Shown here: positions 62,165-64,000 of the stretch, in pieces
Position numbering within the stretch: position 1 is the first letter of the stretch
Layout: each line of letters begins with the position of its first letter
From: Caulobacter flavus
GTDB lineage: Bacteria; Pseudomonadota; Alphaproteobacteria; Caulobacterales; Caulobacteraceae
DNA length: 64,000 bases
Direction: 5' to 3'
Assembly (NCBI RefSeq): GCF_003722335.1
Contig: NZ_CP026100.1
Span: 3,074,001-3,138,000 of the forward strand
The notes under the pieces: generated by a model
The model's input: the letters and a program-made list of their open reading frames with translations, nothing else
What the model was told of the DNA's origin: nothing
The model's database searches: none
Translations under genes and position numbers: made by a program

Positions 62165-62692
62165 TTGAAAAATCGGCTTGATCGAAATGGTCTGGACGCG
62201 GCCGTGGTCGTCGCCCTCGGCTGTAATCTGCCGGGAGCCTACACGAGTCGCGAGGCTCTGTTGGAGGCGGCTGTGTCGGCGCTCGCCGGCGAGGGCATGG
62301 CGGTGGTCGTCCGCTCGGGATGGTGGACCTCGGCCGCCTGGCCCGACCCCGCCGGGCCGGCCTATCTGAACGGCGTCGCGCTGGTGGAGACCGGCCTCTC
62401 GCCGGTCGAGACCCTGGCCGGGCTGCATCGCGTCGAGGCCGCGTTCGGCCGCGCCCGATCCGAACGCAACGCCGCCCGCACGCTCGACCTCGATCTGATC
62501 GCCCATGGGCGGACGGTGACGGACGGCAATCTCGTCCTGCCGCACCCGCGCGCCCACGAGCGCCTGTTCGTGATGGGGCCGCTGACGGAGGTGGCGCCGG
62601 GCTGGACTCATCCTGTGCTGGGAGAGAGCGCGAAGGCGCTTGCCACGAGGGCGACGGTAGGAGCCGACGCCAAGCCGTACCCCCACCCGTAA
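62165..62692 (+). CDS. folK: HPPK, folate pyrophosphokinase FolK
   Basis: About 175 residues: VVALGCNLPGAYTSREALLE, WPDPAGPAYLNGVALVET, RNAARTLDLDLIAHG and LPHPRAHERLFVMGPL are FolK motifs. It transfers pyrophosphate to 6-hydroxymethyldihydropterin. No ATG is available; TTG at 62165 or GTG at 62204 are the options. The GTG gives the more usual short N-terminus but no better binding site. folP and folB are not adjacent. Confidence 0.87.
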   Translation: MKNRLDRNGLDAAVVVALGCNLPGAYTSREALLEAAVSALAGEGMAVVVRSGWWTSAAWPDPAGPAYLNGVALVETGLSPVETLAGLHRVEAAFGRARSERNAARTLDLDLIAHGRTVTDGNLVLPHPRAHERLFVMGPLTEVAPGWTHPVLGESAKALATRATVGADAKPYPHP

Positions 62693-62717
62693 GATCCTCG
62701 CTTTCGCGGGGATTTTA
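62691..62717 (+). terminator. Intrinsic terminator of folK
   Basis: An eight- to nine-pair stem (62693-62701 with 62706-62714, including G-T wobbles) with a TTTC loop runs into GATTTTA, directly after the folK stop. Confidence 0.6.
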
Positions 62718-62896
62718 CGGAAGGGGGAGGTGGGTTCATCCGCTCAACCAAGCCTTCATGTTGTTCCGGCTGGACTTTGCCTTCCGGAAAAGGCATAGAC
62801 GCCGCCTCGCGAAAGCTGGGTGACAACCGAAGCGGCGTTGCGTGACGCCGCACGGAGCCCTATTTTGAGAGACCTTACGGTCAGCCCGAGGAATTC

Positions 62897-63256
62897 ATGG
62901 CCCGCGTCACCGTCGAAGATTGCGTCGAGAAGGTTCCCAACCGCTTCGCGCTCGTCCTGCTGTCGGCGCACCGCGCTCGCGGCATCTCGGCCGGCGCGGC
63001 CCTGATGGTCGACCGCGACAACGACAAGAACCCGGTCGTCGCCCTGCGCGAGATCGCTGACGACGTGATCGATCACGAGGGGCTCAAGGAGCACCTGATC
63101 ACCACGCTGCAGCGCGTCGACGAGCACTCGGAAGCCGAGGAAGAGGCCGAAACCCTCGCCCTGCTGGCCGATCCGACCCACATGCAGATGAGCGAACTGG
63201 AACTCGTTCGCGCGCTGCAGAGCGACCGCGACGGCGGTCAGGAGGAGCGGTACTGA
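62897..63256 (+). CDS. rpoZ: RNA polymerase omega subunit
   Basis: A 119-residue protein: [27 protein letters not shown], then [12 protein letters not shown] are the omega signature; the tail is Glu-rich. It stabilises beta-prime and, in many proteobacteria, forms the ppGpp site. GAGGAATTC precedes the ATG. Its TGA overlaps the likely CTG start of the RelA/SpoT gene, and its last codons contain that gene's Shine-Dalgarno. Confidence 0.96.
63241..63247 (+). promoter_or_regulatory. Strong Shine-Dalgarno for a CTG-started RelA/SpoT gene
   Basis: GGAGGAG ends five bases before the CTG at 63253. This is as strong a binding site as any in the window and there is no other coding frame it could serve. 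It decides the proposed start. Confidence 0.7.
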
Positions 63257-64000
63257 GCCCCGACGGCGCAGACCCTCTGATCATCGAAGCGGCGCCCGCC
63301 GCCGCTCCGTCCGAACGCGCGCCCGAATCTGTCTCGTCAGAGACGGAGTCGGGCGCGTCTTCGTCTGAGCTTCCTGTCGCCGCGGCGCTCGCCGCGACCG
63401 CGCTGGAAGCCCCGCCGGCTCCGAAGCCGCGCAAGTTCCTTCGCCAGTACGAGCTGATCGAGCGGGTCCACGCCTACGACCCGACGGCCGACGAGGCCCT
63501 GCTCAACCGCGCCTACGTCTTCGCCATGCGCATGCACGGCAGCCAGACGCGCGCCAGCGGCGACCCCTACTACGCCCACCCGATCGAGGTGGCGGGCATC
63601 CTCACCGAGTATCGGCTCGACACCGCGACCATCGTCACCGCGCTTCTGCACGACGTCATCGAGGACACGCCGGTCACCAAGGAGGAGATCGGCAAGCTGT
63701 TCGGCGAGGAGATCGCCGAGCTGGTCGAGGGCGTCACCAAGCTCTCGAAGCTGGAGCTGCAGGCCGAGCACACGCGCCAGGCCGAGAACCTGCGCAAGTT
63801 CATCCTGGCCATCTCCAAGGACGTCCGCGTCCTACTGGTCAAGCTGGCCGACCGTCTGCACAACATGCGGACGCTGCACTTCATCAAGAACCAAGCCAAG
63901 CGCGAGCGCATCGCCCGCGAGACGCGCGACATCTATGCGCCGCTGGCCCGCAACATCGGCTGCCACCGCATCTGCACCGAGCTGGAGGAGCTGTCCTTCC
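63253..64000 (+). CDS. spoT: RelA/SpoT bifunctional (p)ppGpp synthase/hydrolase, 3'-truncated, CTG start
   Basis: About 249 codons are visible. After an Ala/Glu/Ser-rich N-terminal tail (about 58 residues), [20 protein letters not shown] begins the enzyme. The hydrolase domain shows [36 protein letters not shown] (HD motif), [11 protein letters not shown] and [16 protein letters not shown]. It makes and degrades ppGpp. The frame has no ATG, GTG or TTG between the stop at 63058 and 63526, where an ATG would cut into the domain. The gene continues beyond the window. Confidence 0.9.

Follow-up and report, generated by a model that had tools for sequence, protein, structure and literature searches.

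We infer from sequence comparison, with a probability of roughly 0.86, that translation of the stringent-response gene rel/spoT of Caulobacter flavus starts in the cell at a CTG codon (63253) that shares two bases with the stop codon of rpoZ. This codon is conserved at the same junction across most of the Caulobacteraceae. The window analyzed here is a stretch of 64,000 bases (positions 3074001-3138000) of a single-contig genome of 5,659,202 bases, and the features of the junction are collected in Table 1. The original prediction held that the rel frame is closed upstream by a TGA and contains no ATG, GTG or TTG until an ATG lying inside the hydrolase fold, and that a GGAGGAG ends five bases before a CTG overlapping the rpoZ TGA as CTGA. 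Its description of the frame is correct to the base: a codon-by-codon listing of the rel frame between 63058 and 63526 found no canonical start (ATG, GTG or TTG), and the near-ATG codons (at most one mismatch) from 63058 to about 63560 are CTG 63253, CTG 63277, ATC 63280, ATC 63283, ACG 63343, CTG 63403 and others. The GGAGGAG was likewise located where it had been placed (63241-63247). The two genes form an overlapping pair, the proposed rel start overlapping the rpoZ stop with its Shine-Dalgarno (SD) sequence inside rpoZ, and that start would be non-canonical, the open rel frame holding no ATG, GTG or TTG ahead of the fold. RNA folding around the start is predicted with a z of -1.95, the AGGAGG being partly paired. 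Further upstream, before rpoZ, an inverted repeat (GTAAGATCCTCGC...GCGGGGATTTTAC, 62690-62720) was noticed by eye and could be a terminator or attenuator hairpin.

Table 1. Features of the rpoZ-rel/spoT junction in the window, and the Asticcacaulis loci used for comparison
Feature	Position or loci	Strand	Evidence or remark
rpoZ, RNA polymerase omega subunit, 119 aa, ending GQEERY; stop TGA 63254-63256	62897-63256	+	Pfam RNA_pol_Rpb6, E 8e-17; ORF
TGA closing the rel frame upstream, in frame	63058-63060	+	
AGGAGG Shine-Dalgarno within the last rpoZ codons, spacing 7 to the CTG	63240-63245	+	6/6 in 218/236 CTG-type loci, 5/6 in 18
CTG, proposed rel/spoT start codon, overlapping the rpoZ TGA as CTGA	63253-63255	+	In-frame CTG here in 236/289 distinct loci
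N-terminal extension preceding the fold, 61 codons, opening with SPDGADPL behind the start and continuing as a variable Ala/Pro-rich linker	63253-63435	+	
rel/spoT, by domains a (p)ppGpp synthetase/hydrolase; truncated at the end of the window	63253-64000	+	Pfam domains; solved Rel/RelA structures
First in-frame ATG, within the hydrolase domain, not the start	63526-63528	+	Residue 92 counted from the CTG
Asticcacaulis loci (n = 24)	L058, L071, L130, L133, L137-L143, L345-L347, L349-L358		

Read from the CTG, rel/spoT comprises 788 codons (full copy at L085:754-3117), and it is the only match to the RelA/SpoT homologue (RSH) query in the genome at E <= 1e-60. Its Pfam domains are HD_4 (87-236), RelA_SpoT (297-406), TGS (456-514), RelA_AH_RIS (527-624) and ACT_4 (713-785), which places the HD hydrolase, synthetase, TGS and ACT domains in the order of a long RelA/SpoT homologue. 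The hydrolase HD motif is present as LLHD (D134), and hydrolase activity is predicted accordingly from the sequence. Alignments to solved Rel proteins begin at residue 64 (6yxa), 69 (7oiw) or 70 (1vj7). Since these alignments and the HD_4 match all begin before residue 92, the ATG at 63526 cannot start a whole enzyme and does lie inside the fold, as had been proposed.

For the comparison across the family, loci were drawn from a contig scan, using the best 80 of 564 confirmed relatives, and from part of the genomes matched in whole-genome searches of the family and the order (375/390 and 60/60 genomes). Among the best 80 of 564 relatives, the closest rel sequences lie on Caulobacter contigs. 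Deduplication left 339 loci, 297 of them distinct (249 and 215 in the first round), and an rpoZ end precedes rel in 289 of the 297; the eight in which none was found (L015, L022, L063, L075, L339, L359, L360 and L392) enter no CTG or non-CTG count. At the codon of the 4-base overlap, the 289 loci have CTG in frame in 236 cases, CTA in 10, GTA in 2 and TTA in 2, with 39 not in frame, and none of the 289 has ATG, GTG or TTG there. Translation of rel from a CTG overlapping rpoZ, as originally predicted, is thus well supported by comparison with related Caulobacter genomes and the wider set of loci. By genus labels (g1-g22), the CTG loci span 19 of the 22 sampled genera of Caulobacteraceae, those without one being g4 (identified as Asticcacaulis by a contig common to L071 and L144), g11 and g18. 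The last six bases of rpoZ in the CTG loci are TACTGA in 234 and TTCTGA in 2, and the SD hexamer is AGGAGG in 218, AAGAGG in 11 and AGGAAG in 7. As background, the extensions contain 8,539 in-frame codons, of which 6 have 6/6 of AGGAGG and 425 have 5/6.

The 53 non-CTG loci consist of the 24 from Asticcacaulis, three others from the family (L135, L369 and L145) and 26 from outside it, the last group lacking the overlap but having canonical codons in the rel frame. A canonical codon precedes the fold in all 53 except L369, which is read as an indel. The overlap is absent from every Asticcacaulis locus, where rpoZ ends in TAA (18), TAG (5) or TGA (1) at 237-623 bases before the Rel fold, unlike in the rest of the family, and where the rel frame offers a canonical codon before the fold in 24/24. 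L145, from genus g11, is also without the overlap. In L135, from the sole g18 genome, and in L369, the CTGA is present and the CTG frame opens with family-like residues before a one-base shift further along; in L392 the rpoZ frame itself shifts. All three are single-contig assemblies that seem to contain indels of a single base, two after the CTG and one inside rpoZ, and those of L135 and L369 are tentatively taken for assembly indels. A separate oddity is L015:1-1500, where a rel 96% identical to the query occurs in a MAG labelled Arachidicoccus with unrelated coding sequence, by eye resembling a Rieske-type oxygenase, joined in frame upstream; this is probably a chimeric contig with a wrong label. 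On a protein tree of 212 first-round loci, the 172 CTG loci group together with only L135 intruding, albeit with low support for the group (0.547), and Asticcacaulis adjoins them. A single origin, in the ancestor of Caulobacteraceae except Asticcacaulis and g11, followed by retention, is the simplest account of the arrangement; alternatively, it may have been lost in Asticcacaulis.

The stretch that follows the CTG has the character of a constrained coding sequence. Many Caulobacter and Phenylobacterium share the first residues LSPDGADPL or LSPEGADPL, and many Brevundimonas have LTAEPANGITILPAR there, with TAEPANGITILPAR after the CTG; the remainder is a variable linker. Across 172 loci, position 2 is S or T in 171, position 5 is G in 126 and position 9 is L in 113. 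In 41 Caulobacter-like loci (816 pairs, which are not independent), dN/dS rises from 0.073 in the HD domain to 0.35 over codons 2-14 and 0.51 over the extension as a whole. The pN/pS of codons 2-14 is 0.39 in frame versus 0.58 and 1.69 in the shifted frames, the shifted values being taken over all pairs rather than the 816, so that one shifted frame is not far from the true one. The extension therefore appears constrained, but far less so than the HD domain, and the dN/dS contrast is modest. Its length ranges from 20 to 74 codons among the CTG loci, and the frame is kept nonetheless.

The strongest competitor to a start at the CTG is a start downstream of it, at a canonical or near-cognate codon, in which case the conserved stretch after the CTG would only be a leader. 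A canonical in-frame codon does lie between CTG and fold in 131 of the 236 CTG loci, so that these species could also start there. The residue numbers in use for C. crescentus SpoT, D81 and Y323 (PMC4848567), point the same way: in L011 (C. vibrioides DSM 9893), a strain of the same species, the sole Asp-Tyr pair 242 apart with room for a residue 1 is D116 (EYRLD) and Y358 (YRSLH), and the numbering then counts back to residue 36 from the CTG, a TTG. The published numbering thus seems to start 35 codons downstream of the CTG. Counting against a start at the CTG is the upstream CUG of C. crescentus dnaA, which is described as unused in vivo (PMC8443254). However, the window locus and 104 others (105/236) have no canonical codon between CTG and fold, and a downstream start is rejected as a general rule. 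None of the 190 downstream ATG, GTG or TTG codons ahead of the fold has at least 5/6 of AGGAGG before it, the best reaching 4/6; within the first 16 residues, conservation is among the highest right behind the CTG; and no other near-cognate codon of the first 20 is conserved, codon 11 coming closest with 85/236. A canonical codon is lacking between the upstream stop and the CTG in 219/236 loci, and all the way from that stop to the fold in 98/236. In 38/236 no more than 24 bases separate the upstream stop from the CTG, and for 15 of the 38 a canonical start is missing downstream as well; none of the 236 loci runs off a contig edge. We consider the downstream start improbable.

The 4-base overlap, together with a strong SD within rpoZ, points to a restart by terminating ribosomes at the CTG. 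Ribosomes ending rpoZ at its TGA would stay on, or re-form at, the AGGAGG and then restart one base back at the overlapping codon, by termination-reinitiation. Initiation at the CTG would use initiator tRNA, and Met rather than Leu is accordingly expected as the first residue. From this anatomy, translation of rel would depend on that of rpoZ. The same anatomy could be read as a -1 ribosomal frameshift at the end of rpoZ, yielding an omega-SpoT fusion: the rel frame is indeed -1 to rpoZ, and some frameshift sites likewise have AGGAGG shortly upstream. This is very unlikely, since the conserved GAG GAG CGN TAC TGA has no obvious slippery run, the third base of its Arg codon is G in 121, C in 43, T in 4 and A in 4 of 172 loci, any shift in 38/236 loci would be confined to about the last eight codons, and an NTGA accompanied by an SD has the form of a start overlap. 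That the CTG is a misread ATG or GTG, conceivable with the single assembly available at first, is refuted by the CTG of 236 distinct loci, in which the same base is also the third base of an rpoZ Tyr (234) or Phe (2) codon.

A CTGA overlap is not rare in itself. In a genome sample of 1,666,500 bases (1.6 Mb, the window and the end of rel taken together), with 1,204 heuristic gene calls of which 697 end in TGA, 231 gene pairs have an in-frame codon at a 4-base overlap, and in 61 of them it is CTG. A right-frame CTGA is therefore common, and the idea of its rarity was rejected. Only two of the 61 have no other ATG, GTG or TTG between about -90 and +120, and of these rpoZ-rel alone has 6/6 of AGGAGG, the other having 3/6. 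The unusual part of the rpoZ-rel junction is the missing alternative start together with the perfect SD. The second overlap, near 274820 of the same genome on the + strand (joined loci L253-L272), may be a CTG start or a gene-call error.

Selection on the overlapping rpoZ codons was assessed by comparing conserved twofold C/T codon columns on the tree of the first 172 CTG loci; the TGA itself is present in all 236 by definition of the set. The last rpoZ Tyr codon ends in T in 0/170 and shows no C/T change. Across the remaining 36 columns, T-ending codons number 1 to 129 and changes 1 to 41; for the five further conserved Tyr columns among them, the corresponding ranges are 34-129 and 26-33. 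The synonymous change from TAC to TAT, which would turn the start into TTG, occurs in 0/234 Tyr-ending CTG loci, and also in 0/24 Asticcacaulis. For the Glu codons of the SD, GAA is found in 2/172 at the first and 12/161 at the second, compared with 13-164 in ten other rpoZ Glu columns. Asticcacaulis has GAA at the first of these codons in 23/24, which indicates that the protein does not force the SD. At the terminal Tyr codon, Asticcacaulis keeps TAC in 24/24 although the codon is not a start there, and yet within its rel genes TAT accounts for 231 of 371 Tyr codons. The start codon alone can thus not explain why the C is conserved, and the invariant TAC may reflect another constraint. Selection for CTG over TTG, which had looked strong, is weakened by this observation and becomes ambiguous. 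In the genome sample, TAC makes up 13/14 terminal versus 3,273/4,365 internal Tyr codons, too few to decide on a preference for TAC before the stop.

The original prediction added that a weak start could limit the level of a toxic ppGpp synthase; the best comparative backing for this idea, a codon that is never TTG, loses force through the TAC of Asticcacaulis. A more far-reaching proposal would be that the CTG has been kept because it is weak. IF3 proofreads start codons and ppGpp inhibits IF2, so that SpoT synthesis would fall as ppGpp rises and the start would act as a feedback brake; omega forms a ppGpp site on RNA polymerase, and the overlap would also tie the amount of SpoT to that of omega. 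The lack of TAT in 234 loci, set against the 26-33 changes of the other Tyr columns, would fit such a brake, and the TAC kept by Asticcacaulis weakens it. We regard the proposal as doubtful.

Whatever the reason for its retention, a start at the CTG would have practical consequences. The true beginning of SpoT/Rel has probably been mis-drawn, because no normal start is available and the CTG overlap is kept across most of the family. Should translation indeed begin at the CTG, the SpoT numbering in use would omit about 35 N-terminal residues, judging from the strain of L011, constructs made from the published start lack the conserved N-terminal peptide, and ATG-started constructs may give wrong amounts of SpoT. 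A synonymous rpoZ change that converts CTG to TTG offers a simple test of whether a weak start sets basal ppGpp.

These consequences bear on a studied model of the stringent response, C. crescentus SpoT (PMC4848567). A literature search, with subscription papers, preprints and supplements outside its scope, recognised no report of a CTG/CUG start of spoT/rel. Ribosome profiling of C. crescentus, a member of the same genus, assigns the same codon to 0.7% of mapped starts (PMC4117421). In E. coli complexes assembled with a variant initiator tRNA, pairing at the first position of CUG is described as weak (PMC11497404). The upstream CUG of dnaA, which bound 30S in vitro, resembles the rel start in having a predicted SD and in belonging to the same genus; dnaA, however, has an AUG downstream of its CUG (PMC8443254), whereas rel of C. 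flavus has no canonical codon before the fold. Termination-reinitiation at short overlaps is known with shared stop and start bases (PMC10666635), from which rel differs in using CTG rather than ATG, GTG or TTG. The closest likeness is to Streptomyces sigR, also a stress regulator with a non-canonical start and a very extensive ribosome-binding site (AGGAGGTG), whose start is conserved across Streptomyces and misannotated in genomes (PMC5472188). The sigR start is GTC rather than CTG, and its repression by IF3 is experimental, a canonical start deregulating the response; in Streptomyces it is rsrA, the downstream partner of sigR, that has an ATGA overlap, while in rel the unusual start itself lies in the overlap (PMC5472188). 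CTG starts in C. crescentus and the GTC start of sigR were thus already known, and what the rpoZ-rel junction adds is conservation across a family and a likely mis-annotation.
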